DNA of 64,000 nt. Origin: Paraglaciecola sp. L3A3 (GTDB lineage Bacteria > Pseudomonadota > Gammaproteobacteria > Enterobacterales > Alteromonadaceae). This document shows positions 39,053 to 63,665 of the stretch, piece by piece. A program made the position numbers and the translations under genes. The notes beneath the pieces were generated by a model. It did not search any database and had not been told where the DNA came from. It was given only the letters and a program-made list of their open reading frames with translations. Every line of letters starts with the position of its first letter. The stretch's first letter is position 1. The stretch is from NCBI RefSeq assembly GCF_009796765.1, contig NZ_CP047023.1:5005501-5069500 (forward strand), written 5' to 3'.

Positions 39053-39130
<78 letters not shown>

Positions 39131-39377: not shown

Positions 39378-39390
39378 AAACGAATTCGAG

Positions 39391-39723
39391 TTAGGCCAAA
39401 GCAGCCATTTCTGCTTTTACAGGTGCAGAAGACTCTAATTCAGCTCTTCTTCTATTAATCACTTTTGCAATGCTAAATAATACATGCCTTTTAGCGCCTT
39501 CCAACTGAATACTTTCAAGAACTTTGGTGGCACCATGTTTTAAAACAAGTACCCCAAACAGTTCATCTGAATAAGATTCAGATATTGAAGAAACGTTAGT
39601 CAAGTCTAAATGCACCTTTATCGAATTTTTAGATATATATTGTTCTATTTTATTGCGCTCAATAATTGCTAGCTTACGGGAAGCTAGATCACTGGTAGGC
39701 AGACTAATAAATATTGGTTTCAT
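39391..39723 (-). CDS. STAS-like domain protein (DUF4325)
   Basis: 110 residues. The pattern KVHLDLTNVSSISESYSDELFGVLVLKHG matches STAS-like DUF4325 proteins, which resemble anti-sigma-factor antagonists: a beta strand, a Ser-rich loop that could be phosphorylated, and a helix. The start codon overlaps the stop of the GHKL ATPase gene (ATGA), so the two are made together and are likely partners, as kinase and antagonist are in SpoIIAB/SpoIIAA. The regulated process is unknown. Confidence 0.8.
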   Translation of the reverse strand: MKPIFISLPTSDLASRKLAIIERNKIEQYISKNSIKVHLDLTNVSSISESYSDELFGVLVLKHGATKVLESIQLEGAKRHVLFSIAKVINRRRAELESSAPVKAEMAALA

Positions 39724-40679: not shown

Positions 40680-40766
40680 CTAAACAAATTTCCGTGTGAA
40701 ATAATTTCCCAATATTTTAATATACATCGTTCTGATTGTAATAAAAATATCATGCAGTACAGTTAT

Positions 40767-42428: not shown

Positions 42429-42696
42429 GATCAACCTCACTTAGCTTATTAAGCTCAATACCACGTTCATTAATAGCAAGAACGCTCCATCTTAGGCCAT
42501 ATACAGTGTGTTCATGTTCTGACAACAAAGACCTAATTAATAATGCATTTAATATTGTTTTAGAAAATCCGTCGGGTTTGCCACTGGGGAAAGCGCAACA
42601 CCCTAAACAGCGACCTATTGAGGTACATATTTCTACAGTTGCACCAGTAGCAAAAAAAGCTAACAGCGCTTGTTGGTGATTGGTTAACTTAGCCAT
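42415..42696 (-). CDS. Small element protein, unknown
   Basis: About 93 residues from ATG 42696 (MAKLTNHQQALLAFF), which shares one base with the stop of the AlpA-like gene (TAATG); the longer frame to 42753 overlaps that gene fully and is unlikely. It has a cluster of cysteines (CTSIGRCLGCC) that might bind a metal. It lies between the regulator and the replication gene, and overlaps the latter, so it may assist replication. No family recognised. Confidence 0.6.
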   Translation of the reverse strand: MAKLTNHQQALLAFFATGATVEICTSIGRCLGCCAFPSGKPDGFSKTILNALLIRSLLSEHEHTVYGLRWSVLAINERGIELNKLSEVDHEAS

Positions 42697-42932
42697 TACG
42701 CTGATCTCCCATCTTGATAAAGATGAGACTGGCGCACAAAGCTTTCCAACCATTTATCTAAATCTTCTTTGATATAACGGACAGAACGTCCAATTTTGAT
42801 AAAAGGTGGTGCAGGTGTGCGGTTATCACGATTTCCTTCCATTCTTGCCTGTCGCAAAAAAGAACGGCTCATACCGATATATTGTGATGTTTCTATTTCT
42901 GATAAAACGCGAGATTTAATTGGCTGTTGCAT
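42696..42932 (-). CDS. AlpA-family excisionase/regulator
   Basis: 78 residues from ATG 42932, with AGGAG 8 nt upstream; upstream in-frame ATG 42986 is less supported. A single MerR-like winged helix: VLSEIETSQYIGMSRSFLRQARMEG, then FIKIGRSVRYIKEDLDKWL, which is the AlpA/Xis-type DNA-binding pattern. Such proteins direct excision and activate early genes of P4-like elements. First gene of the operon alpA-like, small gene, replication endonuclease; a large dyad lies upstream. Confidence 0.88.
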   Translation of the reverse strand: MQQPIKSRVLSEIETSQYIGMSRSFLRQARMEGNRDNRTPAPPFIKIGRSVRYIKEDLDKWLESFVRQSHLYQDGRSA

Positions 42933-42979
42933 CTTTGTTCTCCTAAGTTCATTAATTGATCTCGGAGGCAAAGTTAAAC

Positions 42980-43019
42980 GTCCCAAAAGTCCTAGGACGT
43001 TATTTAGGACTAATGGGAC
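42980..43019. promoter_or_regulatory. 15-bp inverted repeat before the AlpA-like gene
   Basis: GTCCCAAAAGTCCTA (42980-42994) and TAGGACTAATGGGAC (43005-43019) form an inverted repeat with 13 of 15 positions matching and a 10-base spacer, 48 bases upstream of the AlpA-like start. The left arm also contains a small GTCCTAGGAC palindrome. It looks like an operator for the element's own regulator. Confidence 0.6.
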
Positions 43020-43022
43020 AAA

Positions 43023-43922
43023 TTATTTATTTTTTTCTTCAGACACCATGTTTCTAAATGTCTTTTTAGTAATTGTACGCTGGATATTTTTAACATCTAT
43101 CCAAGTCAGCTCATCTCTGCCAACTTCATCAAGTATCGATTCTGGATCTAATGACTCATCAGACTCATGATGCTCATAAAGGTGATCCCACAAGGCAGTT
43201 CCACCTTTTTGTGGATGAAGTTGAATAAGGTTTTTAACTAACCTTTTAAAAGCACTCTCAGTGCGTAAGGAATCGACATTATCAGGCTTAGCTGCAATAG
43301 GGTGAACGTGAGGTATATCATTTGGCAATCGAACTCTTTCAAATTCATCATGCAATATAACAATATCTTCAATTTTAATTCTGTGGCCTATTACTGTTAA
43401 CGTCTTAGGAAAAGTAACTTTGGTTCTATTGAAATCCTTCTCACCAGATAAAGTATTATCACTAATTTGTTGATTTCTATAATTCTTAATCGAGTCTGAC
43501 ATCATTCGCAATGAATCCAAACCTTCTATTGGATAAATTTTTCCCGCTAATTCGTTGCCAATTAAAAACGATAAATCTTTAGGCTGCCAGTCATATAGGT
43601 ACTTATTGGGGTATTTAATTGTAAAATTATACTTTGTAGAATGTTTGATAATATTTGCTGCATCTACAATTGAGAAATGAATTAAACTTATTTTAGATTT
43701 CTTCAACACCTCCAATTGGTCGTTACGGTAGAGTTTAATTAACCCCCTATAATATCCATATCCAAAACCGACGAAGCCCTTGCCTTTAAAATAGCCTCCA
43801 TAAACAATTTTTAAGTTATCAACATAAACATGTAAGTCTAACTTCGACTGCTCAACTAAGTAACGAACTTTACTTAATGGCAGTCCTAACTCATCTAATC
43901 GATAGTATTCTTGATGGAACAA
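43023..43922 (-). CDS. Unknown element protein
   Basis: 299 residues, soluble. I do not recognise the family. The N-terminus (RLDELGLPLSKVRYLVEQSKLDL) resembles a helix-turn-helix, similar in style to proteins that precede AlpA genes in such elements, so it may be a DNA-binding regulator. The rest is mixed alpha/beta, with an acidic C-terminal part (HHESDESLDPESILDE). It ends 91 bases before the AlpA-like start and is transcribed the same way, with the dyad 42980-43019 in between. Confidence 0.6.
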   Translation of the reverse strand: MFHQEYYRLDELGLPLSKVRYLVEQSKLDLHVYVDNLKIVYGGYFKGKGFVGFGYGYYRGLIKLYRNDQLEVLKKSKISLIHFSIVDAANIIKHSTKYNFTIKYPNKYLYDWQPKDLSFLIGNELAGKIYPIEGLDSLRMMSDSIKNYRNQQISDNTLSGEKDFNRTKVTFPKTLTVIGHRIKIEDIVILHDEFERVRLPNDIPHVHPIAAKPDNVDSLRTESAFKRLVKNLIQLHPQKGGTALWDHLYEHHESDESLDPESILDEVGRDELTWIDVKNIQRTITKKTFRNMVSEEKNK

Positions 43923-44390
43923 TTAAATCCTCCTTTAATAGCAAACAACCTAAAGCTTAAAATTTGCGTGATTAAATTTTATTCGTACAGCTATAGCTTA
44001 TCTAATTAGCTATAGCCCAAATATAGCTTTAGCTTACTTAAAACATTCCAGAATATTGACTTGCTATTATCGCTTTTTTTTCTTCTATGATGCCATTACT
44101 TTGTAATGCCATAAGTTAACTGGCATTTTCAAAATAAAAAAGCACTTTAGTATTTTTCAAATCGACGCATCTTAGCCAATTTAAGTATGGAAAATATTCT
44201 TCACATAGTTTTTAATAGGATGCATAAAAGTCGCGTTAAAGTCAGGTCTCCTTTTGCTTTTGTAATTCATTGCAGTTTTGATGGTGTGGTAGTAAAAAAC
44301 ACTTAATAAAGTCTAAAGGTAAGTACTGAAAATGGCAGAAATAAAAATTAAATCGAGAAGTGACATATACGACATGCTCGATAATAAGCG
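43923..44390. other. Gene-free regulatory region of the element
   Basis: 468 bases between the unknown minus-strand gene and the inserted gene cassette. Two direct copies of AGCTATAGC (43989-43997, 44008-44016), 19 bases apart and with palindromic cores, plus a related ATAGC at 44024, look like operator half-sites. A 26-codon frame (44332-44412, MAEIKIKSRSDIYDML) with AAAGGT before it runs across the cassette border and is probably the truncated start of an older gene. Confidence 0.45.
43989..44016. promoter_or_regulatory. Direct repeats AGCTATAGC, possible operator
   Basis: Two identical 9-base words with a 19-base period, each containing the palindrome GCTATAGC, 67 bases upstream of the 299-residue gene. 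Placement and spacing (about two helical turns) fit a repressor site. Confidence 0.4.
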
Positions 44391-45112
44391 TTATGAGTAT
44401 TGTCGAATTTAGATACTAGATTCATGTATAAGGATTAATTAATTGAATTACGAAGAAAGAATAATTTCTGCAATTGAAAAAACAAAATCACTCGGTCTCG
44501 AATTAACTGTTAATCCTTACCCTTTTAAAGCTGCATTAAGCCATGAAGAAAAACTCAAAGCTCTTCGGCTATGTGTAGATCTTCTTTATTCCAAGGGGTT
44601 TAAGAGTTCATCTGATCTAGCAAATAACTGTACCCCAGTTCACTTAATGACGCAGCACCTCCTTAAAACAGAATTTAATATCGATAGTTTTATTACTATT
44701 GGAGATAGGTATTGGGATGATTATGTTTACTGTGAAATGTCATATGAAAAGATTGAACGTGAACTAAAAAGTCCTGATTTAAATAAACCAATTAAAGCTC
44801 ATGTCTGGTTAACCTTATCCGATGGAACAATAATAGATTTTACAGCTGAAGCCCATGCTGACCTGCTATTTCAACGAGGCGAAAACCCAATTGAAAATTG
44901 TATAATGATTGTGGATATTGATAGTGAAGAAAATGATAAATCTGGCTATCATCGTCCTTATTTATTGGGAGCCGACTTCCTGCAAAGGGTTGGTGTATGT
45001 AAAATCTCATCAGAGTAAGATACTCATAACAAGAGAATCAAAAAGGGCTAAAACAGCGGGCTGTTCACTCCGCTCAATTTTAGCCCACTATTTTTAGCCT
45101 GTTATTTGGGCG
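44391..45112 (+). mobile_element. Single integron-type gene cassette (722 bp)
   Basis: The cassette contains one gene (44443-45018) followed by an attC-like site. The key sign is that GTTATGA at the left border (44390-44396) is the exact complement of TCATAAC (45024-45030), the inverse core of the attC-like site, as required for a circular cassette whose core site is closed by its own first bases. The right border has GCGTTGAGG. No integron integrase is in the window, so it was probably inserted from an integron elsewhere. Confidence 0.65.
44443..45018 (+). CDS. Cassette-borne transglutaminase-like protein, unknown
   Basis: 191 residues from a TTG start with AAGGA 9-10 nt upstream. No signal peptide. 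The stretch AHVWLTLSDGTIIDFTA (H120, D132) resembles the His-Asp part of transglutaminase/papain-fold enzymes, and C63 (NNCTPVHLM) is a possible nucleophile, so a Cys-His-Asp triad is plausible. The family is not recognised with certainty. It is the only gene of an integron-type cassette, where unknown functions are common. Confidence 0.65.
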   Translation: MNYEERIISAIEKTKSLGLELTVNPYPFKAALSHEEKLKALRLCVDLLYSKGFKSSSDLANNCTPVHLMTQHLLKTEFNIDSFITIGDRYWDDYVYCEMSYEKIERELKSPDLNKPIKAHVWLTLSDGTIIDFTAEAHADLLFQRGENPIENCIMIVDIDSEENDKSGYHRPYLLGADFLQRVGVCKISSE

Positions 45113-45118
45113 TTGAGG
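45024..45118 (+). repeat. attC-like recombination site
   Basis: Inverse core TCATAAC (45024-45030) and core GTTGAGG (45112-45118) surround an imperfect dyad: ATAACA with TGTTAT (45100-45105), GGGCTAAAA (45045-45053) with TTTTAGCCC (45078-45086), AGCGG with CCGCT. About 95 bases, within the attC size range, placed right behind the cassette gene. Confidence 0.65.
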
Positions 45119-45136
45119 CTGTAGAAAAAGGTCGAG

Positions 45137-45299
45137 TCAAAAAACATACCGTGTTTTAGGCTGATTTTTTTGAAGTGCAATGGTAAAACCTATCCAAGTT
45201 TCACGTAGCAGTGCCATTTGGTGTGTGTTTTTAAGTAACTTTGATAATAAATTTAAGGCTGGGACTTTTCTAAAGCCTCGATAGGCTAATAAGGTAATC
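45137..45299 (-). pseudogene. Possible C-terminal gene remnant
   Basis: A frame open for about 53 codons without a start (reads AYRGFRKVPALNLLSKLLKN ... and ends at TGA, 45137-45139). It looks like the C-terminal end of a truncated protein, perhaps a transposase, lying directly behind the cassette. No family could be assigned, and it may be chance. Confidence 0.25.
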
Positions 45300-45300
45300 T

Positions 45301-45879
45301 ATGAGTAATATTCTTGACCATTTAAATCAGAAACCTTTGTCTGAATTACTACAGAAACTTTTAATTGCTGCAACTGAAGCTCAAGATAATCAGTTAATTA
45401 AATGGGCAAAACTTGAATTGACAGGTTATCAAAGTCCTTTAATGGAGGAGGGAGATTTGGTACCTGAATACAGAACTGTAAACGGATATCATACGGATGA
45501 TTTTCATCATAAACTTATGATTGAAGAAGTTGATTTACAATTCATCAATTCTACAAACCTCCGAGCTAGTGTCATTGAACTCGAGGCATATCAAGAAAAA
45601 GGCCTTATATTAAAAGATCCTCAACTTTGTAATACAATTTTTGAATATTTAAATGTTAAAGTGACTTCATTTCATGTCTCTTCATCTCAGGTTCAGAAAT
45701 TACTAGCAGCTATAAAGTGTGAGCTTATTAGTAAAGTTAATACTTTAAATGTCAAAACGAGTGAAATAATACCAGAAACTACGAATGTTGAAGATATTAT
45801 AGATTTCAAGCCTAATTTTTATGGCATTGGTTTAAATCTTAATGCAATGAAAAAAAGATGGTTTCCGCGTAAAAATTAG
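45301..45879 (+). CDS. AbiTii-domain protein
   Basis: 192 residues. The N-terminal third (LSELLQKLLIAATEAQDNQL, IKWAKLELTGY, then LVPEYRTVNGY) matches the AbiTii domain, found in proteins linked to phage defence and abortive infection, although the domain itself is poorly characterised. The C-terminal part is unknown and basic at the end (MKKRWFPRKN). Start ATG is preceded by TAAGG. It lies in the cargo part of the element, 30 bases before a membrane protein that may be its partner. A defence role is inferred. Confidence 0.65.
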   Translation: MSNILDHLNQKPLSELLQKLLIAATEAQDNQLIKWAKLELTGYQSPLMEEGDLVPEYRTVNGYHTDDFHHKLMIEEVDLQFINSTNLRASVIELEAYQEKGLILKDPQLCNTIFEYLNVKVTSFHVSSSQVQKLLAAIKCELISKVNTLNVKTSEIIPETTNVEDIIDFKPNFYGIGLNLNAMKKRWFPRKN

Positions 45880-45909
45880 CCATACATAGAGTTCATACTC
45901 ACTAAATTA

Positions 45910-46566
45910 ATGTGCGAGTCAAAAATGTTTTTTAATGAAATTACACTGTTATTTCTTGGTCTTATAGTAGGACTACTCGTAAATAATTATCTACCAAAGT
46001 ATTTTGGTAAAAAAGGGGAAAACCTTGCGACTAAAGAAGATATTACAGAAATCACAGATAAGATAGAATCAGTTAAAAAGGATTATGCTCATCAACTGGA
46101 AGCAACGAGGGCTGAGCTAACTTCTCAGCTTCAAAACAATAGTTATAGATACGAAAAAGAATATTCTATTCTAGAGTCACTTACGGAGTCTCTAGTCGAT
46201 GTCAGGAACTGCGCAAATAGATTGAGACCTGTTGTTGACATAGTTACTAAAGACAAAACAGAAGAAGAAATAAAAAAAGAGCGTCTTCAAGCATTGCATA
46301 ATGCAAGATTATCTCTTTATGAGATAAGAGAGAAGAAACGACCTTTCTATCCAAAGAACATTTATAATTCTCTATGTGATATTGATACGCTTGCACATTC
46401 AGAATCTGTGAAGTACCAATACCACTCACCTTCTTATGGAAATGAATTCGATACATATTGGGAAGAAGCAGAGAAAAATCAAAAAGAGATTGCCGAAAAA
46501 TCTAATATATCTATCAACTTGGTTCGAGAAAGAATCGTGGAATGGGAAAAGCTTCCAAACATATAA
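45910..46566 (+). CDS. Membrane-anchored coiled-coil protein, unknown
   Basis: 218 residues (a second ATG at 45925 is an equally good start). One membrane segment near the N-terminus (EITLLFLGLIVGLLVNNYL), then KKGENLATKEDITEITDKIE leading into a coiled coil and a helical C-terminal domain. Proteins with this layout and the NLATKEDI word are common as unknowns in islands and prophages. It follows the AbiTii-domain gene by 30 bases and is probably co-expressed; together they could be a membrane-linked defence pair (inference). Convergent with the integrase. Confidence 0.6.
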   Translation: MCESKMFFNEITLLFLGLIVGLLVNNYLPKYFGKKGENLATKEDITEITDKIESVKKDYAHQLEATRAELTSQLQNNSYRYEKEYSILESLTESLVDVRNCANRLRPVVDIVTKDKTEEEIKKERLQALHNARLSLYEIREKKRPFYPKNIYNSLCDIDTLAHSESVKYQYHSPSYGNEFDTYWEEAEKNQKEIAEKSNISINLVRERIVEWEKLPNI

Positions 46567-46578
46567 CCACAAGCCAAA

Positions 46579-47814
46579 TTAACCAATCAAATTAACCGCA
46601 GCTGCCTTATGTTCAGGTGCTAAATGAGCATATCTAAGTGTCATAGTTAAGTCACTATGTCCGAGTAATTCTCTCACCGTATTAAGATCGACTGAAGCCA
46701 TAACTAATTTACTTGCAAAGTGGTGGCGCAAATCATGAAAACGGAAATCTTCAATTTTTGCCATATCTAAAACAGTTGCCCAACTTTTGCGAATTTCTAA
46801 CAGTTGTTTACCATCTTGACCTTTAAACACTAAACCATGAAAGCCTGAATCAATTTTCCAATTTTTTAGGGTTTCATAAGCTTCATTGTTTAAAGGAATG
46901 TGTCTGGTTTTTCCCGATTTGGCATTTTCAGATATCACGGTTAGGTTTCTATTAGATAAGTCTACATTTTGCCATTCAATACTTAAGATTTCCCCCCGTC
47001 TCATGCCTGTATTCATTGCTAGTAAAACGATAGGAGAGAGATAATCAGCGAATGTGTTTTGTGTTAAGTCAGGGAGTAATTCATAACCTCTTTCTACTCT
47101 AAATTTGTTCGCGCTAGTACGCTGACTTTTAATTTTGCCATCTCTACTCTTTAAGGCATCTCTTAGCCGTTTTTCTTCGTCTTTATCTAAATACCTAACC
47201 TTTGAATTATCTACTTTTAAAGCTTTAACTTTGTGCAGGTCATGACTTTCAATTATTTCCCATTCTACTGCACGGCTAAGGCAACCCTTTAGCGTGTTTA
47301 TTCGACGGTTAATTGTGGCAGGTTTCAGCCCGCCACTCTTTTTCTCATTACGCCATTTTTCCAAATGCCAAGCGGTTATATCTGAAAGCTGAAAATCTAA
47401 GAACTGAGGAAATGACGCTTTTAAATTTTTAATAGCGGCCGTTGAAGTTTTGGCATTTCGTGTTTCTAGCCAAGGTTTATACTTTTGTTCAACAAACGCC
47501 CTGAGAGTTGATAACTTTGAAAGCCTTACTTGCTCTTTGGCTTGCTTCCTTACAGCCTGAACATCAATACCTTTTATTATCTCGGCAGATTTATCTTTTG
47601 CTAAATCACGTGCTTGTGCAGGCGTAATTTGACCATCCGCCCCCAATAGATAATTAACTTGTTTTCCATTAAGACGATAAAACAAGTAATACTTAATTTT
47701 ACCGTTCTCAGTGATACGAGCATGAAATCCTGAAATGTCGGTATCATTTAACCTTTTATCACTAGGTTTTAAGTTTCGAATAGTCGAATTAGAGATCTTC
47801 GCTTTAACTGCCAT
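46579..47814 (-). CDS. P4-type tyrosine integrase of the element
   Basis: 411 residues. N-terminal DUF4102-like arm-binding domain (SNSTIRNLKPSDKRLNDTDI ... YYLFYRLNGKQ), core-binding domain (about 105-185) and catalytic domain with R272 (TGMRRGE), K299, H360-DL-R363 (HDLRHH), H386 (LLGHSD) and Y395 (LRYAHL). All catalytic residues are intact. It lies 180 bases inside the right attachment site and recombines at the 3' half of tRNA-Arg. Length and arrangement are typical of integrases of tRNA-targeting islands. Confidence 0.95.
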   Translation of the reverse strand: MAVKAKISNSTIRNLKPSDKRLNDTDISGFHARITENGKIKYYLFYRLNGKQVNYLLGADGQITPAQARDLAKDKSAEIIKGIDVQAVRKQAKEQVRLSKLSTLRAFVEQKYKPWLETRNAKTSTAAIKNLKASFPQFLDFQLSDITAWHLEKWRNEKKSGGLKPATINRRINTLKGCLSRAVEWEIIESHDLHKVKALKVDNSKVRYLDKDEEKRLRDALKSRDGKIKSQRTSANKFRVERGYELLPDLTQNTFADYLSPIVLLAMNTGMRRGEILSIEWQNVDLSNRNLTVISENAKSGKTRHIPLNNEAYETLKNWKIDSGFHGLVFKGQDGKQLLEIRKSWATVLDMAKIEDFRFHDLRHHFASKLVMASVDLNTVRELLGHSDLTMTLRYAHLAPEHKAAAVNLIG

Positions 47815-47993: not shown

Positions 47994-48039
47994 CTCCGGA
48001 GGCAGAGGTCGCGCGTTCGAATCGCGCCGGGTGCACCAT
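47994..48039 (+). repeat. Right attachment site (46-bp core)
   Basis: Exact copy of tRNA-Arg positions 39085-39130. It marks the right end of the integrative element; the following bases are the original downstream flank of tRNA-Arg. Confidence 0.93.
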
Positions 48040-48888
48040 CTCTATATTCTAAGATATCACTTACCTCACAAACCCATTACACCTGTAAATTTATCACTAA
48101 TGTGCACCCTGCCGAGGCGAACGCGTCCGTTCGACAAAATTGTCTGGAACAATTTTGGACATGCGCAGCATGGTCGCGAAGCGACGAAGCACATGGATGT
48201 GCTGAGCAATCCGCGGGTGCACCATTTATACCTTCAAAAATACCACTTGCCTTATAATCCCATTACACCTGTAAATTTATCACTAATGTGCACCCTGCCG
48301 AGGCGAACGCGTCCGTTCGACAAAATTGTCTGGAGCAATTTTGGACATGCGCAGCATGGTCGCGAAGCGACGAAGCACATGGATGTGCTGAGCAATCCGC
48401 GGGTGCACCATTTATACCTTCAAAAATACCACTTGCCTTATAATCCCATTACACCTGTAAATTTATCACTGATGTGCACCCTGCCGAGGCGAATGCGTCC
48501 GTTCGACAAAATTGTCTGGAACAATTTTGGACATGCGCAGCATGGTCGCGAAGCGACGAAGCACATGGATGTGCTGAGCAATCCGCGGGTGCACCATCTC
48601 TATATTCTAAGATATCACTTACCTCACAAACTCATTACACCTGTAAATTTATCACTAATGTGCACCCTGCCGAGGCGAACGCGTCCGTTCGACAAAATTG
48701 TCTGGAACAATTTTGGACATGCGCAGCATGGTCGCGAAGCGACGAAGCACATGGATGTGCTGAGCAATCCGCGGGTGCACCATCGCTATATTCTAAGATA
48801 TCACTTACCTTACCAACCTATTACGCCTGTAAATATATCACCACTGTGGCCCCCTGCCGAAGAGAACTCGTACGCTCGACAAAATAGT
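48031..48888 (+). repeat. 186-bp tandem repeats carrying the tRNA-Arg 3' end
   Basis: GTGCACCAT, the last bases of tRNA-Arg plus one, recurs at 48031, 48217, 48403, 48589 and 48775, always 186 bases apart: four full units and a decayed fifth to about 48888. Each unit has a 71-base spacer of two alternating types (type A in units 1, 4, 5; type B in 2, 3) and a nearly constant 115-base core bounded by GTGCACCC and CGGGTGCACC. The layout recalls the E. coli tyrT locus, where 178-bp repeats carry the tRNA-Tyr 3' end. Confidence 0.92.
48102..48226 (+). ncRNA. Putative structured repeat RNA (first copy)
   Basis: The core can fold into hairpins CGAACG/CGTTCG (48118-48133), CAAAATTGT/ACAATTTTG (48135-48157), GTCGC/GCGAC (48173-48185) and AGCACAT/ATGTGCT (48188-48203), closed by a tRNA-like acceptor stem GCACCC/GGGTGC followed by ACCA. 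Copies at 48288, 48474 and 48660. The two base changes inside stems (copy 2 near 48335, copy 3 near 48494) turn Watson-Crick pairs into G-U pairs of the plus-strand RNA, supporting transcription in the tRNA direction. Not known to be expressed. Confidence 0.5.
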
Positions 48889-54994: not shown

Positions 54995-55429
54995 TTATGA
55001 TTCATTCAGTTTGACGATCTTAATAAAATCAACGCTATTGTAAAAAACCCTCAATCTCCCTTTTTTTACATAGGCAATTAACCGGTATTTTTTAAGTTGA
55101 GGTATCAATAATGCTAGCGATTTTCTAAAATTATTTTTTCTAAAAAAACCATCGAGTACATACAAAATTTTTCCCTCACTATATTCATATGGGCGCAATT
55201 TATACTCCGCGTTAGAGGCAAGCTGTTTAAGCGTATATTTGGATATTTTGGCAAAACTAATGCTGGCTAATGGTTCGCAGTTTTCTGTTTTGACCATAAT
55301 AATTTGTCTGTGCTTGCTAGCTTCCCACAAACAATGGAGCTGATAGGCATCAACTCCAGATTCGTTTGTAGCGCGTAGTGCTATTGCCTCATTTAATAAA
55401 TCTGCACCTTGATGCTCAACAAAATACAT
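54995..55429 (-). CDS. HlyC-like lysine/peptide acyltransferase of the microcin cluster
   Basis: 144 residues, start with GGAGTG 6 nt upstream. The layout of toxin-activating acyltransferases (HlyC/RtxC) is visible: W35-EASK-H40 corresponds to HlyC SPLH with catalytic His, EPLASISFAKIS to its PVAYCSWANLS strand, and D93 (YVLDGFF) to the catalytic Asp. In microcins E492 and H47 the HlyC-like MceI/MchD works with a partner to fix a glycosylated siderophore on the peptide. It overlaps the SelO-like gene by 14 bases, so the two should act together here. Last gene of the operon. Confidence 0.75.
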   Translation of the reverse strand: MYFVEHQGADLLNEAIALRATNESGVDAYQLHCLWEASKHRQIIMVKTENCEPLASISFAKISKYTLKQLASNAEYKLRPYEYSEGKILYVLDGFFRKNNFRKSLALLIPQLKKYRLIAYVKKGRLRVFYNSVDFIKIVKLNES

Positions 55430-57140
55430 TTTTCACTCCGTTAAAGCTGTTCATTGGGTCATTATCTATAAGGGCAAAAAGACGTTTTAGATACGGATAA
55501 AAATCATAATTCTGCACGATATATGCACTCTGATTGGTCTTTATCATGGCACTCAAAGCACAAATATCAGTAAATCGTTTTTCTATTTTGTTCTTATCAT
55601 TATAGATATACTCATCAGTTGCGTTACTGTATTTGATTTCCACCCCATTACCTGAATAGATTGTGCAGCTTTCATTCAATAAATTTTCATATACCCAATT
55701 GATAACACGTTCGTTTTCGTTAATGATTTCAGCTGTTTTATCAACACTGCCGGTTGCATAATAATCATCCACTGTGCGGCCAATGTAAGTAATAAAAAAA
55801 TAACTGCTAAGAAAAGCCCTTTTTATAATCTGAATGGCAAACGTTATGTAAAAGCTCCTCTCATTTTGCCCATGCCAACCCAACGCAGGTGCCATAAGTG
55901 TGATAAGTGAACGGAGATCTTGGGTAAATTCAGTCAGAAATTTATTCTTTTGATTAATGCCACTATTATTTAATAGGGCATAGAGACTGGCGGACAATAT
56001 ATCATTGAAAAAATCAACCGCATCGACGGTAGGCAATGTACTGGTTTTTGTAGGTGAGCCCATCGACAACAAGGAAAGTGTACGAGATGCTACTTTTTGC
56101 CACTCTAATGTAGAGGAAAGTTTGGTTGACATTTCCCGGTCTAGTCCGAATATAAATCCCATATTAACACTGGCATATTGGTAAAATTTCTCTTCGTAAA
56201 GTTTTAAAAAGTGCTCTTCAACAGGCTCATCCCCTAAAAATTTACTAACTAAATAGAACCATTCTTTTGTAATTAACGCAGGTGTTGACACTTCTTCAAA
56301 GTAACTAGTTACTTGACCATAATTGCTACCAGATACCACAAAACTGCATAGCGCAGTATCCAGTACACGTCCATCCAAACTGATATTAGACGGAGATAAT
56401 GCATTATGGGATAAGCGTGCTATCCGGAAAAAGGACAACTGATCGGCACACTTATCTAAAAAATTTTGTATGAGCGCATAAAAATCAGAAAGTAAAGCTT
56501 GCTTGCCAATCCCCTTATAAATGCCGAGTACCCTAGAATAATCTGAACGCACAAGTGTTTGATACTCTGGCTTAAGCCGGAAGTTGATACAAGGCAAAAA
56601 GTGGCCCGGTCTTGTGATTGGTTCCCTCACCATAAGTACACTGGGCGCTGCATTATCATTATGCAGTGCTGAGGTATGATCCAAAAAGATTAAACCACTG
56701 ATAGCTTGCACTCCAACGGGCGATATTTTACTCAACAAGCGCGAATAAATAATCTCCTTAACTGCCCCCTGAATGTCCAGCCCGCCATATGAGTGTGACC
56801 GCAGTGCGCCCTCGCCGGCCAGTGCATTGGCACCAACACCTTTTACTTGCGCGTCGTTAATATTAACGACCCTAGCACCGCCACCATTTATACCTATGCC
56901 AAACCCGCCATAGCGCTCCGCAAACACTGTTTGTGTAATATCTGATTGCTTTCTGGAACCGTCGGTAAAAAAACTGTTTTTTACAACCCAAGAATAATTA
57001 TCAACAAATTCATTATCTGACATATAACTATTACTAGTGGCAGATTGATCTCGCCACAATAAATGCGTACCAGTAATTTTATTCACTTCAACGGGGAGTT
57101 GATTAAAAGATTTCGCCAATTCAATTAATATTTTTGTCAT
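55416..57140 (-). CDS. SelO-like (kinase-fold) protein, MchC/MceJ position
   Basis: 574 residues, soluble. Residues 77-180 follow the SelO/YdiU pseudokinase pattern: YGGFGIGINGGGARVV, QVK100GVGANAL, VKE129IIYSRLL, VGVQAISG and APSVLMVREP; the metal site is echoed by SHNALSPSN252ISLDGRVLD261. SelO proteins transfer AMP. In microcin E492 synthesis MceI/MceJ activates the peptide C-terminus with ATP before joining it to glucosylated enterobactin, so an AMP-transfer fold fits. The role here is inference from similarity and from the HlyC-like gene that overlaps it. Confidence 0.72.
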   Translation of the reverse strand: MTKILIELAKSFNQLPVEVNKITGTHLLWRDQSATSNSYMSDNEFVDNYSWVVKNSFFTDGSRKQSDITQTVFAERYGGFGIGINGGGARVVNINDAQVKGVGANALAGEGALRSHSYGGLDIQGAVKEIIYSRLLSKISPVGVQAISGLIFLDHTSALHNDNAAPSVLMVREPITRPGHFLPCINFRLKPEYQTLVRSDYSRVLGIYKGIGKQALLSDFYALIQNFLDKCADQLSFFRIARLSHNALSPSNISLDGRVLDTALCSFVVSGSNYGQVTSYFEEVSTPALITKEWFYLVSKFLGDEPVEEHFLKLYEEKFYQYASVNMGFIFGLDREMSTKLSSTLEWQKVASRTLSLLSMGSPTKTSTLPTVDAVDFFNDILSASLYALLNNSGINQKNKFLTEFTQDLRSLITLMAPALGWHGQNERSFYITFAIQIIKRAFLSSYFFITYIGRTVDDYYATGSVDKTAEIINENERVINWVYENLLNESCTIYSGNGVEIKYSNATDEYIYNDKNKIEKRFTDICALSAMIKTNQSAYIVQNYDFYPYLKRLFALIDNDPMNSFNGVKNVFC

Positions 57141-57148
57141 CGTTATTC

Positions 57149-58384
57149 CTATAGCGACAAGATAAACCTTACCGAGGATTCCGTCTCGTCAATAGTGAGG
57201 GTTTGATATTCTTCCGCCTTTGCTGCGATGCTCTTAGATGACATCACATCAATCACTATGCTCACTATCTGATCCACCGAATCATTTAGAAAATCAATCG
57301 CATTGCTAACACCCAATTGCCAGAGTAAAAAAGCATTATCCGGTTGATCAAAAGTATAAGGTGAAATAATTTGTAAAGTGCCAGAGGCCAGAGCTTGTGC
57401 ACAAGTACCTATACCTCCATGATGTATAATCAGTGCCGAATGAGCAAACAAATAGCTAAAGGGAGCCGATGTCAGCGTCAAAACAGGAAAGTCCCCATTG
57501 TCTATAAACGAGTTATTTTGCGAGTGTGCAACAAATACGCCCGGCTTACCGACCAAACGACAAAGATGTCGGATTTTGTCAATTAACAAACGCGTAACCG
57601 GAATTCCCGTACCAAAGGTAAATGTCAAAGGAGAACCGTACCGATTAATAAATTCATCCAGTTGCGTATTGTTATAATGATTCTGAGTGTCCCCTAAAAT
57701 AAAACCGGTATTAAACAACTGTTTAGGCCAGTCGCCAGGATTAGGCTTAAACCACTCGGGAAACAAAGCCAACACTGAAGGACTGGACTCCATGTCAGGT
57801 AAATCCGGTAGTGCCCATTCCGCTAAACCCAACTCTTTACGGGCTGGATTTATTAGGGGTCTAACTAGCCGGTCAAAAGTATCTTTCTTCGCCTTCTTTT
57901 TTATTTGGGTGATTATTTCACTCCACAATCGTTCCTCTACCTGCCTGCGCATGGGGTAGGCAGGGCTTAATATGGAGCTGATACATTGGGGAGCAAGCAC
58001 CACTTGACAGGACTTAAGGCCAAATTCCTCTGCAGCCATTCTGGCCCCCGATAAGGCATCCTGATAAATAACCAGTGGTTGATGCCCTTGCTGAACAACC
58101 TGTTGAATGGCCTTAAACGTTGGTTTGATTGCTGGAAAATGAAACTCATTGTAATGGTTTTGTGCGTGATCACGCGACCAGGTTAACGGGTTATTATAGG
58201 TACTTTCATAAGCTGCCCGAGTCGAAACTGAAAAACACTCAACCCCCATAGAATTCGCCAGAGGTAAAAACTTTTCGTTACCTAAAAAAATGGCTTTCGC
58301 ACCAGTTTCATTTATAGAGGCTGCCAATTTGATAAACGGCAGCGCATCGCCCGTTGTGCCAAGTGAGTAAAGTAAATAATCCAT
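57149..58384 (-). CDS. Family-1 glycosyltransferase (IroB/MchA-like role)
   Basis: 411 residues, GT-B fold. N-terminal acceptor domain starts YSLGTTGDALPFIKLA; the C-terminal donor site shows H321-H-G-G324-IGTCAQALASGT and the following SPYTFDQPDNA, typical of UGT-like enzymes using nucleotide sugars. In siderophore microcin clusters a GT of this family glucosylates enterobactin before it is attached to the peptide. No siderophore synthesis gene is in the window, so the acceptor is unknown. It ends 8 bases before the SelO-like gene and belongs to the same operon. Confidence 0.85.
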   Translation of the reverse strand: MDYLLYSLGTTGDALPFIKLAASINETGAKAIFLGNEKFLPLANSMGVECFSVSTRAAYESTYNNPLTWSRDHAQNHYNEFHFPAIKPTFKAIQQVVQQGHQPLVIYQDALSGARMAAEEFGLKSCQVVLAPQCISSILSPAYPMRRQVEERLWSEIITQIKKKAKKDTFDRLVRPLINPARKELGLAEWALPDLPDMESSPSVLALFPEWFKPNPGDWPKQLFNTGFILGDTQNHYNNTQLDEFINRYGSPLTFTFGTGIPVTRLLIDKIRHLCRLVGKPGVFVAHSQNNSFIDNGDFPVLTLTSAPFSYLFAHSALIIHHGGIGTCAQALASGTLQIISPYTFDQPDNAFLLWQLGVSNAIDFLNDSVDQIVSIVIDVMSSKSIAAKAEEYQTLTIDETESSVRFILSL

Positions 58385-58520
58385 TTTTCTACTCCCAATT
58401 GATTTATATATTAATAGCTATTTTTTCATTTATGAAATCTGTACTTACGCCATAATTGAACAAGTTGAATAAAGTAGAGCACACAACGGGCGTTTTACTG
58501 ATAAGAGAGCTCATCAATCT

Positions 58521-59630
58521 TCAACGCATGAAATTAGAAAAAGCGAAAAAACATGATAAAAGTAAAACTAACGAAACCAATTTCTCTAGGGATACAGACT
58601 TTTTAAATGTAAATATCGACAAAACTAAACATATTGCCCCCCCAATCATCCCCCCAATATGAGCCGCAAAATCTGTGTCATTGATATACAAATCTGACAC
58701 AACTTGAAAAATCAATAAAAGGGCTATCCACCAATAAGGCATTGGATCAACCGACGGCTGCAATGAGCCCTTACTTACTACTTTTAGAACTAGATATGCG
58801 CCAAACAAACCAAATACTCCACCAGACGCACCTACCACAAGATTGTATTGAGAGAAAATTAGAGAAAAAAACCAACCAGACAAAGTTGATAAGATCAAAA
58901 TATTAAAGTATCTAGCTCTGCCAAAAAATCGCTCAAGCATGCCGCCAAGAACGCCAAGGGAAATAAGATTAATGAATAAGTGCACAGGGTCAACATGTAG
59001 AAAAAACGCAGTTACAAACCTATAATATTCACGTGACTCAATTACATTTTTTGAAAACGCAAAATTATCCATCGCTAATAAATAATCATCTTGGCTCATA
59101 AAGAACAATGCAGTGTTCAGTGTGACCATTATAAGCACGGCACTGTAGGTTACTAGCTGCTCACAATAACCAGACACAACTCCCTTCAAACCAAGCTCAC
59201 TATGTTGTGAGTATTTTTTTTCGATTCTGCTTAAGCACTTCACTAATGTATGATAGTCATCTTTATCCTCAAACATTTCTGGCATAAATGTGAGGGGAAA
59301 ACGCCCATTAACCGCCATTCTACAAAGACTCATAGACTTCTTTGTCCCAAAAGTTTGAACTTCGATTGACTTTATATCTGCATTGCTAATTTTTTTAGTT
59401 GAGAACAGCCCTGTAATTAACATGCTGTCACTCATTATCTCAATCGATTGCTGTCTCTTTGATATTTCAAACAATATCAGTGCACAAATCAAATTGTAGA
59501 ATACAAATGTTGCTTGTGGACTTATTCGCCAAAAACCATAAGAGATAATAAAAAAAATAACGATATTTCCAGCTGCCAAGATGGCAAACAGAGACCTAAT
59601 GATGTTTTTATTTTTTATAAAAAATTTCAT
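58521..59630 (-). CDS. Rhomboid intramembrane serine protease
   Basis: 369 residues. Two N-terminal membrane segments (about 13-55), a soluble PH-like stretch (about 60-150) and a rhomboid core with H217-x3-N221 (HLFINLIS), the nucleophile G-A-S269-G-G and H324 (AAHIGGMIGG), a full Ser-His dyad. It cleaves membrane segments of other proteins. It sits between the bacteriocin peptide and the glycosyltransferase, the place where immunity genes usually stand. It may process the peptide or its membrane target, or give self-protection (inference). Confidence 0.88.
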   Translation of the reverse strand: MKFFIKNKNIIRSLFAILAAGNIVIFFIISYGFWRISPQATFVFYNLICALILFEISKRQQSIEIMSDSMLITGLFSTKKISNADIKSIEVQTFGTKKSMSLCRMAVNGRFPLTFMPEMFEDKDDYHTLVKCLSRIEKKYSQHSELGLKGVVSGYCEQLVTYSAVLIMVTLNTALFFMSQDDYLLAMDNFAFSKNVIESREYYRFVTAFFLHVDPVHLFINLISLGVLGGMLERFFGRARYFNILILSTLSGWFFSLIFSQYNLVVGASGGVFGLFGAYLVLKVVSKGSLQPSVDPMPYWWIALLLIFQVVSDLYINDTDFAAHIGGMIGGAICLVLSIFTFKKSVSLEKLVSLVLLLSCFFAFSNFMR

Positions 59631-59654
59631 TTAAAGAAACTCGTAAAGCCCTGA

Positions 59655-59682
59655 AAAAAGGGTGTCTGCAGAAGACACCCTT
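59655..59682 (-). terminator. Terminator behind the microcin peptide gene
   Basis: On the minus strand AAGGGTGTC, a short loop, GACACCCTT and a T6 run, 8 bases after the precursor stop. It should give abundant short mRNA for the peptide, with partial read-through into the modification genes. Confidence 0.9.
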
Positions 59683-59689
59683 GATAGTG

Positions 59690-59968
59690 CTAGCCGAAGG
59701 CAGCACTGGCGGCTTGGTAACCGGCGAACAAAGCTAAACCAGCCATTGCGGTAACTGCTATGGGAGAAACTGCAAAAGCCACTCCAACAGCAACTGACCC
59801 CCAGCCTGTTCCAAATGAAGCCATGCCAATACCAAAAGCCGCACCTGATGCGAGACCTGCGGCAACATATCCACCACTGCCCCCGGATATCATTTGAAGC
59901 TCTTCAACAGAAATCTCTTCAAAATCAAATTGTTCATAGTTTTTATCTAAACCAAAAATATTTTTCAT
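59690..59968 (-). CDS. Double-glycine-leader microcin precursor
   Basis: 92 residues, with AGGAG 10 nt before the ATG. Residues 1-30 are a double-glycine leader (EEISVEELQMISGG) matched to the C39 peptidase exporter upstream. The mature 62 residues are rich in Gly and Ala with two hydrophobic helices (VAAGLASGAAFGIGMASFG and SVAVGVAFAVSPIAVTAMAGLALFAG), suggesting a pore-forming class II microcin. It ends AASAAFG and so lacks the Ser/Gly-rich tail to which siderophores are fixed in E492, H47 and M. Function as bacteriocin is inferred; target unknown. Confidence 0.85.
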   Translation of the reverse strand: MKNIFGLDKNYEQFDFEEISVEELQMISGGSGGYVAAGLASGAAFGIGMASFGTGWGSVAVGVAFAVSPIAVTAMAGLALFAGYQAASAAFG

Positions 59969-60165
59969 AAAATATTCTCCTGATTATTAATCTTCCACTA
60001 AAATAGGATTGATTAATTGTCTGTACCATTACTGGGACAAACGGTTAGTTAGGCTGGCCTGAACTATTCATTCAAAGTTAATTCCGGTCGGCCGCTTTAT
60101 TTCCGTTTGGTTGAATATTGAACATAGTCAACCAAGCAGAAAATTCTTTATTATCAAAAGATACC
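59969..60165 (-). promoter_or_regulatory. Upstream region of the microcin gene
   Basis: 197 bases between exporter and peptide gene. Long enough for a separate promoter, with AT-rich text before the AGGAG ribosome binding site. I could not identify specific boxes. Imperfect GGCCGACCGG-type symmetry around 60087-60096 might be regulatory. Confidence 0.35.
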
Positions 60166-62331
60166 CTAACTGCCTTTTCTTGGGTGCTTAGCCGTTGCTG
60201 CTTGATTATTACTTTCGAGGAATAATTGCCCATTCTCTAAGCGATAAATCTTATTGGCCCTGGTAATGGTTTCCTGCCGGTGGGCTACCATAATCCGGGT
60301 CATGTTTAGCTGCTGTATCTGCTCGCTGATCCTGGCTTCGTTGCTGGCATCTAAATGACTAGTGGCTTCATCCAAAAATAGTATAACCGGCTCTTTATAT
60401 AAGGCTCTGGCCAATAATAAGCGTTGCAGTTGACCGCCCGATAAGTTAGACCCCATATCCCCCACTAAGGCGTTATACCCCATAGTCATAAGGCTTACGT
60501 CTTGATGCATAGCTGCAAGCTGTGCGCAGCGCTCTACTTTCAGGTAATTAGGCTCTGGGTCAAAGAAGCTAATATTATCGGCAATGGATCCTGCCAATAA
60601 AGTGTCGTTTTGCATCACACCGCTGATGAGATGGCGGTAATTTTTAAGGCCAAGGTGAGTGATATCCTGACCATCGAGTAATATTCTTCCTGACGTAGGC
60701 GTCAAAAGGCCCAACATCAACTTCATCAGCGTGCTTTTGCCGCAGCCAGAGGCGCCGATAATAGCAATACAATCTCCGGCTTCTATGCTCAAGTTGATCT
60801 TGTCAATAATATCAGGCTGGTCATCAGCGTAACTAAAACTCAGATTTTCCAGTATCAGTTGACCTTTGGGCGCTTTCACCATTGTGTTACCTTCACGGTG
60901 TTTTTCCTGCTCATGCAGGGCAATATCGGCTATGCGATCTAGGTGCAGTCGCATCATTTTGAACTGAATAAGCTGCTCGATTAGATTAGTAAAACGGCTA
61001 GTCAACTGACCTTTGTAAGCAATAAAGGCAAGTACCATGCCTACCGACAAGGTATTTTGCATCACTAGCATGGCTGCCATATAGATAACAGCAACATTTT
61101 CCAAACCAAACAATAGCTGGTTAGCGGCCGAGAAACTGATGTTGAGTTTACCCAAGCGAATATCGGCATTGATCACTTCGGCGTAGCGATTCTGCCAGAT
61201 CCCTTGGCGCTGAGATTCATTACCGAACAACTTTATGCTTTGCATTCCACGGATATTTTCTAAAAAACTACTTTGCTCTTTCGCACCACTCTGGATAGCT
61301 TCTTCAGATGCTTGATGAAGTGGCCGATAAAGGCCCAGCCTCAACAGGCTATACAAGGCTATAGCCAGTAGCACCACCAAGGTTAACTTGGCGCTGTAAA
61401 TAAACATCATACTTAATACCGTGAGGGCCATCACCCCATCCACCAGGGTCTCAACTACCCCTGTGGTTAAACGCTCACGAATATGACCCAGTGAACCAAA
61501 ACGTGAAACCACATCGCCAATATGTCGTCTCTCAAAATACTGCATGGGTAGACGTAATAAATGATGGAGCAGATTTACCCCCATTTGCATATTGAGCAAA
61601 CTAGACAAGCGCAGTACTAACCAGCTTCTGGCACTACTGGTCACCACTGAGATGATAACCAGCAAGGCAAAACCCATGGCCAGCACCGACAGCAAAGGCT
61701 GATCTTGACTTATCAGCACTTCGTCCACCACCCATTGCATATAGTAAGGAGTGGCCAGTGAGAATAGTTGCAATAAAATCGATAGGGCAAATAATTTTAA
61801 TAATGCGGACTTTAACCCTGTCATTTTGCTCCACAGCTGTGATAAGCCCATGGACTGTTGTTCACGTTGTTTAACAAACTTACTGGTGGGATGCAGCTCC
61901 AGAGCGATACCGGTATAGTGATCGGCGAAATCACTCAAACTGAGGCAGCGCTTACCCAAGGCTGGATCATTTGTAGTGGCACTTTTTTTAGATATTTTTG
62001 TCAGTACTACAAAGTGATTCATGTCCCAGTGCAGAATACAGGGCAGGTTAAGTTTATCCACATCGTCAATGGAGCATTTCACAGCGCGACTGACCAAACC
62101 CAAACTGTCACCCACATCAATCAACTGTTGCAGATTCATGCCCTTTAAATTGGCTGAAAAACGCTTGCGCATAGCTGACATATCAAGCTTGTGACCATAG
62201 TACGAGGCAACCATTGCCATCGACGCCAAACCGCATTCGGCAACTTCAGCCTGCAAAATAAGAGGTACCCGTTTGGCTGACGAAAACTCGAGCAGTTCCA
62301 AGGGATTGGCATGCTGGCTTGCTAACGCCAT
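60166..62331 (-). CDS. C39-peptidase ABC exporter (CvaB/PCAT type)
   Basis: 721 residues. N-terminal C39 peptidase: C33 (QAEVAECGLASMAM), H106 (HWDMNHFVVL) and D122 (NDPALG), which cleaves after the double glycine of the leader. Six membrane segments (about 175-440) and an ATPase with Walker A IGASGCGKST, signature NLSGGQLQRL and Walker B VILFLDEATSH. It processes and exports the peptide through the membrane with the fusion protein and a TolC. Its start overlaps the fusion protein stop by one base. Complete. Confidence 0.96.
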   Translation of the reverse strand: MALASQHANPLELLEFSSAKRVPLILQAEVAECGLASMAMVASYYGHKLDMSAMRKRFSANLKGMNLQQLIDVGDSLGLVSRAVKCSIDDVDKLNLPCILHWDMNHFVVLTKISKKSATTNDPALGKRCLSLSDFADHYTGIALELHPTSKFVKQREQQSMGLSQLWSKMTGLKSALLKLFALSILLQLFSLATPYYMQWVVDEVLISQDQPLLSVLAMGFALLVIISVVTSSARSWLVLRLSSLLNMQMGVNLLHHLLRLPMQYFERRHIGDVVSRFGSLGHIRERLTTGVVETLVDGVMALTVLSMMFIYSAKLTLVVLLAIALYSLLRLGLYRPLHQASEEAIQSGAKEQSSFLENIRGMQSIKLFGNESQRQGIWQNRYAEVINADIRLGKLNISFSAANQLLFGLENVAVIYMAAMLVMQNTLSVGMVLAFIAYKGQLTSRFTNLIEQLIQFKMMRLHLDRIADIALHEQEKHREGNTMVKAPKGQLILENLSFSYADDQPDIIDKINLSIEAGDCIAIIGASGCGKSTLMKLMLGLLTPTSGRILLDGQDITHLGLKNYRHLISGVMQNDTLLAGSIADNISFFDPEPNYLKVERCAQLAAMHQDVSLMTMGYNALVGDMGSNLSGGQLQRLLLARALYKEPVILFLDEATSHLDASNEARISEQIQQLNMTRIMVAHRQETITRANKIYRLENGQLFLESNNQAATAKHPRKGS

Positions 62332-63578
62332 CAGCCTATCCTACCTTGTAAACTATAAATTGGATCGAGCATCCAATCGAGTAAAGAACGAGTGTCTAAA
62401 ACTATATCCGCTTCTAATAACATACCACTTTTGAGGGTGAATTCTTGTCCATAACCCCGAATGGATTGCTCACTTAGCTTGCTGCGGGCACGATAGACAG
62501 GTTCAGTAAGGGGCACTGGAAGACTGTTTGTTGCTTGAGTGATCAATGCTTGATCGACCCTGACTATGTGACTTTGCATTAAACCAAAACGTTGATGAGG
62601 AAATGCTTCGAAACGTAATCTGGCTACATCGCCGATTTTGATAAAACCAGCAGAGCGAGTTGGTAGCATCAGCTCCGCCACAAGCTCTGCGCCTTCAGGA
62701 AGCAGACTCATCAGCAAGGTATTATGTTGCACTCCCTGACCTTTATCCACCTGGATGGCCGTAATCGTGCCACTATGTGTGGCATTAATCACCAGTTTAT
62801 GGCTGTTTTGTAAATGGGATGATTGGCGACTAAGTTCAGATTGTTGCTGAGCAATTTCGGTTCTTTTTACGCCGTATCTGTCAGCCAGAGTGACAAGCTC
62901 ATGTTCTAATTGCTGAATTTCATTTTTTTGCTGTAGTGTGCTGCGCAGTAAAGACTCGAGATCTTGTCTGCCTATCAGATGCTTTTCCAGTTGTTGCTGT
63001 AATTCCAGTTCAGAAATATAACCCTGCTGTTGCAACTTGTAGTATTGGCTCTGTTGAGCCTCTAGCAAGGCAATTTTTTCCCTCTGCAATTTTTGTTGGC
63101 GAACCAATCCTGCGAGAGAGTCATTTAGCACACTAAGGCGTTGACTTAGGCGCAAAGACTCCTCCTCCTGTAGTCTTTCTTGTTGCTGCCATTGCTCATC
63201 AAGCAAGCGGCTTTGATTGCTTAGCTCAAGAGCGAGTTTGTCACTCAGCTCTTCGCCTGAGTCAAGAATTTGTGCCGTGACAATTAACGCTAGAGGTTGA
63301 CCAGCGACGACTTTGCTGCCTTCTTGAACAAACAGTTGGTCCACCACCCCGCCACGTTCGGTATAACTTTGTATTAGACCTTCTTCCGGTTTAAGGTAAC
63401 CATGTACTGTTTCTTTACGTGCGTAATTGGTAAAACACAGAAACAGCATTATAGCTATCACCACAGTAGTGAGTGTTAAGGTAAGCACAGTGAGAGACAG
63501 CGGTTGGGCAAGGCATATATTACCATATAACCTTTGTTTTTGTGCGTCTAAGGCTTGTTGACGAAAAAGTTCTGACAT
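62331..63578 (-). CDS. Membrane fusion protein (CvaA/HlyD type)
   Basis: 415 residues. One membrane segment (about 28-50, LTVLTLTLTTVVIAIMLFLCF), a biotinyl-lipoyl half (YLKPEEGLIQSYTERGGVVDQLF), a long coiled coil rich in Gln (about 110-250) and the returning lipoyl and beta-barrel parts (INATHSGTITAIQVDKGQ, VARLRFEAFPHQRFG). This bridges the ABC exporter to TolC in type I secretion. It is the first gene of the cluster, with the promoter region at 63610-63665. Confidence 0.94.
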   Translation of the reverse strand: MSELFRQQALDAQKQRLYGNICLAQPLSLTVLTLTLTTVVIAIMLFLCFTNYARKETVHGYLKPEEGLIQSYTERGGVVDQLFVQEGSKVVAGQPLALIVTAQILDSGEELSDKLALELSNQSRLLDEQWQQQERLQEEESLRLSQRLSVLNDSLAGLVRQQKLQREKIALLEAQQSQYYKLQQQGYISELELQQQLEKHLIGRQDLESLLRSTLQQKNEIQQLEHELVTLADRYGVKRTEIAQQQSELSRQSSHLQNSHKLVINATHSGTITAIQVDKGQGVQHNTLLMSLLPEGAELVAELMLPTRSAGFIKIGDVARLRFEAFPHQRFGLMQSHIVRVDQALITQATNSLPVPLTEPVYRARSKLSEQSIRGYGQEFTLKSGMLLEADIVLDTRSLLDWMLDPIYSLQGRIG

Positions 63579-63609
63579 ATGACTAAATCCATTTAGCTGA
63601 TCGAATAGT

Positions 63610-63665
63610 TGAGAATAATCTTCAGTTAAGGTAATTATTTAGGTCGATAATTAATCGTTTGTCAA
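63610..63665 (-). promoter_or_regulatory. Promoter with Fur-like dyad before the microcin operon
   Basis: On the minus strand TTGACA (63660-63665) and TAAATA (63636-63641) are 18 bases apart, a good sigma-70 promoter. Directly downstream lies TGAGAATAATCTTCA (63610-63624), matching 11 of 14 arm positions of the Fur 7-1-7 consensus TGATAAT-N-ATTATCA. It is 32 bases before the fusion protein start. Iron repression of the cluster would follow if it is real. Confidence 0.45.

Follow-up and report, generated by a model that had tools for sequence, protein, structure and literature searches.

In a stretch of 64,000 nt from Paraglaciecola sp. L3A3 (NZ_CP047023.1, positions 5,005,501-5,069,500; hereafter the window), a minus-strand operon appears, on balance, to encode a system for a bacteriocin-type peptide with a modified C-terminus, one that would work like a class IIb siderophore microcin without being one. 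An earlier note on this DNA had described a seven-gene operon with tight spacing at its end. All seven open reading frames (ORFs) were found intact and in the order claimed: membrane fusion protein (MFP), C39 ABC exporter, double-glycine (GG) peptide, rhomboid, glycosyltransferase (GT), 574-aa protein and 144-aa protein. The MFP and ABC genes share 1 base, 8 bases lie between the GT gene and that for the 574-aa protein, and there is a 14-base overlap between the genes for the 574-aa and 144-aa proteins. Pfam matches agreed with the CvaA-type fusion protein, the C39 exporter and the rhomboid named in the note, and the peptide core following the GG has the 62 residues that it gave. The features are as follows.

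62331..63578, minus strand: HlyD/CvaA-type MFP, 415 aa (Pfam HlyD_D23, 4.6e-9; 25% identity, E 1e-33, to the HlyD-type protein of the Nissle mch cluster)
60166..62331, minus strand: C39 peptidase ABC exporter, 721 aa (Pfam Peptidase_C39, 2.4e-32, and ABC, 1.9e-31; 38% identity to Nissle MchF over 684 columns)
59690..59968, minus strand: double-glycine precursor peptide, 92 aa (ORF; Pfam bacteriocin leader 0.001, below the cut-off; family search)
59879..59968, minus strand: peptide leader, 30 aa, ending ISGG (from the family alignment)
59693..59878, minus strand: peptide core, 62 aa, hydrophobic and Gly/Ala-rich, ending AAFG (5660 Da; grand average of hydropathy 1.22)
59693..59698, minus strand: C-terminal Phe-Gly of the core, the commonest kind of tail in the peptide family
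59654..59680, minus strand: hairpin and T-run 3' of the peptide gene, a possible partial terminator (RNA fold -16.3 kcal/mol, z -2.82)
58521..59630, minus strand: rhomboid intramembrane protease, 369 aa (Pfam Rhomboid, 3.4e-27)
57149..58384, minus strand: GT1-type glycosyltransferase, 411 aa (Pfam EryCIII-like_C, below the cut-off; matches to GtfA and GtfB in the PDB)
55416..57140, minus strand: MchC/MceJ homologue with a SelO fold, 574 aa (hhalign to Nissle MchC; predicted-structure matches)
56385..56390, minus strand: Ser251-Asn252 of the MchC homologue (Ser at the Asp position of the SelO motif TDN, Asn kept)
54995..55429, minus strand: MchD/MceI homologue with an HlyC-like fold, 144 aa (BLASTP, profile and fold comparison with MchD)

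The search for relatives of the peptide, with three aligned precursors (from the window and from the Cellvibrio loci L097 and L101) as the query, scored 7993 candidates and yielded a family of 43 proteins at E <= 1, the weakest match having an E value of 7e-6. A chance peptide was rejected, since the window peptide belongs to this family. The Pfam peptide leader models remained below their cut-off, and the GG and the family leader were clear. The leader is near-constant (MNTFxLDKNYxQFNFEEISVxELxxISGG; 41 of the 43 peptides aligned, P0151 and P0158 excluded), and the cores vary from Gly/Ala-rich and hydrophobic to Pro/Trp-rich or Ser/Thr/Tyr-rich. The C-terminal residue is Gly in 34 of the 43 peptides, 28 of which end in [FYW]G; the window peptide ends in AASAAFG, and a single family member ends in Ser. 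After clustering of the cores at 40% identity (42 peptides; P0151, with a core of fewer than 30 residues, was excluded), 9 of 13 clusters had a representative ending in [FYW]G; shuffling gave a mean of 0.31, and none of 20000 shuffles reached 9. This combination of a near-constant leader, a recurrent tail and a free core would be expected if the exporter read one end of the precursor and the MchC/MchD pair the other, and it suggests that MchC and MchD read the peptide tail. When 23 of the 43 peptide rows were compared with 36 of the 73 MchC rows by the length of the longest contig, 15 of these 23 peptide rows agreed with an MchC row, a result that is suggestive only.

The earlier note would have counted its reading as refuted had neither of the last two proteins resembled microcin ligase, HlyC or SelO; we found homology to MchC and MchD together with the corresponding folds, and the reading was not refuted on this point. 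When either the 574-aa or the 144-aa protein served alone as the query, sequence searches of Pfam, NCBIfam and the PDB gave no identification. Comparison of the 574-aa protein with MchC of Escherichia coli Nissle 1917 by hhalign gave a probability of 100 and an E value of 6e-47 (for a single comparison), and the top 9 PDB chains matched by its structural model (predicted local distance difference test 92.3) were all SelO/YdiU. The structural neighbours ranking after SelO include Bud32, SbnC, AcsD and kinases, with Z scores too close to tell them apart; SbnC and AcsD are siderophore synthetases that adenylate a carboxylate. The description of this protein as SelO-like is borne out by the MchC profile match and the fold, and not by Pfam SelO (PF02696), which the window protein did not match and which 1 of 33 MchC family members matched (E 0.0011). 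Among 82 MchC homologues, Lys100 and Glu129 were each conserved in 81, and Asn252 and Asp261 in all 82; the presumed roles of these residues are those of their SelO counterparts. The Asp position of the SelO motif HGVMNTDN (HGxxxTDN), its catalytic position, is occupied by Ser251 in 81 of the 82 homologues, whereas SelO and YdiU have TDN. According to PMC12599244, SelO is an AMPylating pseudokinase. Loss of the TDN Asp would fit adenylation of the peptide C-terminus rather than of a hydroxyl, because a carboxylate should need no base to attack ATP.

The 144-aa protein matched MchD by BLASTP (E 5e-9 over 79 aa), a profile of the window clade matched MchD with a probability of 92.7 and an E value of 4e-7, and its predicted fold is that of a toxin-activating acyltransferase (HlyC-like). 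The match of A9 to the MchD profile (E 9e-25) is partly circular, as A9 contains two enterobacterial MchD rows, and the homology is taken from the BLASTP and window-clade profile matches. The HlyC-like assignment of the earlier note holds at the level of the MchD match and the fold and fails with Pfam HlyC (PF02794), for which the window protein scored 12.3 bits against a cut-off of 25, and Nissle MchD 44 bits. The HlyC family search of the host genome was uninformative, since no control matched either. One Asp column is conserved in the MchD set, but no His column reaches 70% conservation.

In the mechanism that we propose, MchC would activate the C-terminal Gly carboxylate with ATP as an acyl-AMP, and MchD, as a partner of GNAT/HlyC fold, would transfer the activated peptide onto an acceptor hydroxyl; the acceptor is probably a sugar-bearing product of the GT. 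The C39 exporter, in which the motif VAECGLAS is present with its functional Cys, would then cut off the leader and secrete the conjugate, whose hydrophobic Gly/Ala core would act on the membranes of rivals. The rhomboid would cleave stray peptide in the producer membrane or otherwise protect the producer. The acceptor, the killing activity and the role of the rhomboid are all putative. A more specific version, which we consider less likely than not, is that the peptides form a class joined through their C-terminal Gly, in the manner of ubiquitin, to a non-siderophore sugar-bearing acceptor, with the SelO-fold protein that has lost the Asp of its catalytic position as a carboxylate-adenylating ligase, the GNAT/HlyC-fold protein as the transferase and the rhomboid guarding the producer against its own peptide in the two loci where it was found. 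Excess peptide could be produced if the hairpin after the peptide gene, a feature that the earlier note does not mention, acts as a partial terminator; 3 of 200 shuffles folded as well as the observed sequence (59680-59654), the hairpin was not among the sites reported by the promoter/terminator scanner, and promoter-like sites were no commoner in the window than in shuffles (22 vs 26.4).

A universal tail is weakened by the 15 of 43 peptides that end otherwise than in [FYW]G, including GQAFA (twice), SCF (three times), CFGK and one Ser, although some of these peptides may be truncated at contig ends. The rhomboid as the immunity protein is also weakened, because L097 carries both it and a two-helix ORF. 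In the window the rhomboid occupies the place of this ORF, which encodes a small membrane protein and lies near the peptide in L097, L101, L131 and L132.

It is decidedly unlikely, in our view, that the product is a true siderophore microcin, with its tail joined to a glycosylated siderophore made by an unrecognised route or taken from neighbours, and with uptake through siderophore receptors. The MchC, MchD, GT and C39 components do match the class IIb set, and NRPS-sized frames (non-ribosomal peptide synthetase) of up to 4375 and 2573 aa in the genomes G775 and G759, respectively, match the adenylation model below its cut-off, so these two genomes could make other non-ribosomal siderophores. 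However, a 2,3-dihydroxybenzoate (DHB)-AMP ligase above the cut-off was found in none of four genomes, the host and three relatives (best 223.9 bits against 723.55, best in the host 170.9; 2 of 14 controls passed the cut-off), and IucA/IucC had no match in these four, the E. coli control being positive. The host genome had no frame longer than 655 aa matching the adenylation model, and no Fur box was found in the window within 3 mismatches of a single 19-base consensus. The GT resembles IroB over just 54 columns of its C-terminal half, its N-terminal half not being IroB-like; IroB strongly matches both the N and C models of EryCIII-like, whereas the window GT matches the C model alone and below the cut-off (8.8e-7, 29.4 bits against 31.7), and its PDB matches over residues 3-388 are to GtfA (E 1.1e-10) and GtfB (E 5e-8). 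Membership of class IIb was rejected on the FG tail, the non-IroB GT and the missing DHB-AMP ligase marker. The reading in the earlier note is partly supported, for the divergent MchC/MchD homology, the C39 export and the peptide family; class IIb membership is unsupported on these three counts. A glycocin-like product, in which the GT would glycosylate Ser/Thr of the peptide and MchC/MchD would do something else, such as AMPylation or acylation, seems unlikely. It would suit the position of the GT gene next to that of MchC and, in L101, the presence after MchD of another GT and of more ORFs of sugar type (read by eye), but tail conservation speaks for the C-terminus, and PMC7472721 has the class IIb GT acting on the acceptor and not on the peptide.

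We also considered it quite unlikely that the peptide is no weapon at all but a secreted, anchored or signalling peptide with its C-terminal Gly joined to a cell-surface sugar or lipid. The Gly-ended tail would be compatible with such a role, as would the lack in the window of a small immunity gene, or of any small hydrophobic ORF, adjoining the peptide gene. Against it, the variability of the cores and the tandem peptides preceding the two-helix ORF in L131 resemble bacteriocin-immunity cassettes, and siderophore-microcin immunity proteins have, according to PMC7472721, two or three transmembrane helices. As for the rhomboid, it carries the GASG serine and the AAHIGG histidine, its predicted catalytic residues. 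That it is a maturation protease performing a rhombosortase-like step, rather than a means of self-protection, is not very likely: it is located between the peptide and the GT in both the window and L097, and the NCBIfam rhombosortase model TIGR03902 gives it 52.5 bits, but this score is under the 84-bit cut-off and no rhomboid was found at that place in L101, L131 and L132, three relatives that share the leader. A stray housekeeping GlpG was rejected: the host has two other rhomboid matches, but the cluster rhomboid had no close match in the other 39 relatives searched (best 38.2 bits, against 802 for itself) and is 65% identical to that of L097.

Relatives of the system were found in the Cellvibrio family. 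The same gene order, with the rhomboid, was found in L097 (G775, Cellvibrio japonicus), and the same order minus the rhomboid in L101 (G776, C. polysaccharolyticus); both have a 67-aa two-helix ORF, alike by eye and in the same place. Two loci on short contigs, L131 (G792) and L132 (G759), contain an ABC gene, one or more peptides, a two-helix ORF of 60-63 aa and then a GT. In L131 this ORF is preceded by a tandem of three distinct peptides, two of them ending in FG and one in YA. G759 is also the genome of the Thalassocella locus L003, with the peptide and MchC on different short contigs. Among 65 other MchC loci (L107 and L115 having been removed as duplicates of L004 and L013, and some loci being cut by contig ends), MchD adjoins MchC in 57, a C39-type ABC gene lies within 10 kb in 41, this kind of GT is present in 4 and a rhomboid in 1; the MchD count used a profile built from hits in those same loci. 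For the 53 loci flanked on each side by 6 kb or more, the counts were 47 for MchD, 36 for ABC, 32 for MFP, 3 for GT and 1 for the rhomboid.

A tree built by a quick method from 82 MchC proteins placed that of the window in a 9-row clade (support 100) with the Cellvibrio-family rows L097, L101 and L003 and five database proteins, and Nissle MchC in a separate, mostly enterobacterial clade of 16 rows (support 99). The close MchC clade was found within the genus in the host genome only (1 of 22 searched) and in 3 of the 144 genomes of the Cellvibrio family, which do not include the host, itself outside that family; any MchC match was present in 15 of these 144. The peptide family occurred in 4 of the 144, namely all three with the close MchC and G792, which gave no MchC match. 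In the order as a whole, 10 of 394 genomes, host included, had any MchC match, some of them weak, and in a class-level draw 5 of 369 genomes besides the host matched, all weakly and over 62-135 positions. The GT, MchC and MchD of the window are 68-79% identical to their counterparts in L097, L101 and L003. Its exporter genes are 34-49% identical to those of L097, L101, L131 and L132, whereas the L097 and L101 exporters are 82-87% identical to each other. With the modification genes and rhomboid close to Cellvibrio-family loci and the exporter genes distant, the window copy looks like a mosaic, judged from these identities, in which a Cellvibrionaceae-type modification module follows a different exporter and which a single lineage of the genus would have acquired.

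Several further observations concern the relatives. MchC-MchD pairs occur well outside Enterobacteriaceae, in Oxalobacteraceae, Pseudomonas, Cellvibrionaceae and a cyanobacterial metagenome-assembled genome, a contig of which (L018, 6860-8653) has MchC with an adjoining MchD-like ORF. The Cellvibrio-family cluster L108 (G892; 15641-16210 and 8570-10730), ordered MFP-ABC-two GG peptides-GT...MchC-MchD with two further GT-like ORFs (by eye) between, is nearer to the class IIb tail type, its peptides ending in a Ser run and then GGA. Another small peptide family was seen near MchC/ABC in L097 (2186-2353) and L112 (7261-7419), with a leader ending in QGAG and the core CSFLQGRGFSNTASxxC; close to this peptide, L097 has a radical SAM-like ORF (5335-6579, by eye). 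A third MchC locus of G775, L099, encodes a GG peptide (6944-7198) that includes a Ser-rich stretch and has charged residues in its tail. The C39 ABC frame of G775 (L097, 13365-15122) ends at 585 aa, so this exporter may be broken, or the sequence in error. Elsewhere in the window, there is a tandem array at 48028-48885 (186-base unit, 4.6 copies, 93% matches), and the region 39053-47814, with a tRNA-Arg (39053-39129), hypothetical genes and an integrase-like ORF (46579-47814, by eye), probably represents an integrated element distinct from the operon.

The peptide family provides a natural comparison set, in which a single enzyme pair goes with an almost invariant leader, many cores and a short tail that recurs, and in which enterobactin genes were not recognised. 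With it one can test directly whether SelO proteins of the MchC type adenylate carboxylates and which partners other than siderophores can be joined to a peptide C-terminus, and it suggests that leader and tail, rather than the core, are the handle for genome mining. Among the matches listed, the open-licence literature described neither the peptide family nor a cluster of this kind with a rhomboid, in line with the candidate new family of the earlier note.

The operon can be set beside several known systems. The MchC homologues share with the SelO/YdiU pseudokinase adenylyltransferases the fold and the motif Asn and Asp, and differ from them in the replacement of the TDN Asp by Ser and in an identity of 11-13%. 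The MchD homologue has the fold and one conserved Asp column in common with the RTX toxin-activating acyltransferases (HlyC/ApxC), from which it is set apart by the sub-threshold Pfam score of the window protein and an MchD set without a conserved His. The occurrence of the MchC family outside Enterobacteriaceae was already known, because Dudkiewicz et al. 2012 (PMC3281104), in their section on these genes, list mchC homologues in Cellvibrio japonicus, Xanthomonas and Vibrio. These belong to the same protein family as that of the window, and their five C. japonicus genes compare with five MchC matches in G775; for Cellvibrio, that section mentions neither a peptide nor a GT, a rhomboid or a tail motif. 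Class IIb, which Mortzfeld et al. 2024 widen inside Enterobacteriaceae (PMC11634061), is defined in PMC11634061 and PMC7680869 by a Ser-rich tail that carries a siderophore derived from enterobactin, attached, in the latter, at the C-terminal Ser carboxylate. The 2020 review PMC7472721 reports that MceIJ/MchCD link glycosylated enterobactin with the Ser/Gly-rich C-terminus, and gives their precise function as unknown. The window departs from this class in its FG rather than Ser-rich tail, in a GT just distantly related to IroB within GT1, and in having a rhomboid and no small immunity ORF next to the peptide; no enterobactin esterase of the MceD/IroD type was present among the 8 ORFs scanned, the search for it being confined to these. 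With MccH47/MccM of E. coli Nissle 1917 and with MccE492 it shares the GG leader, the C39 ABC exporter and MFP, adjacent MchC and MchD, and a GT.

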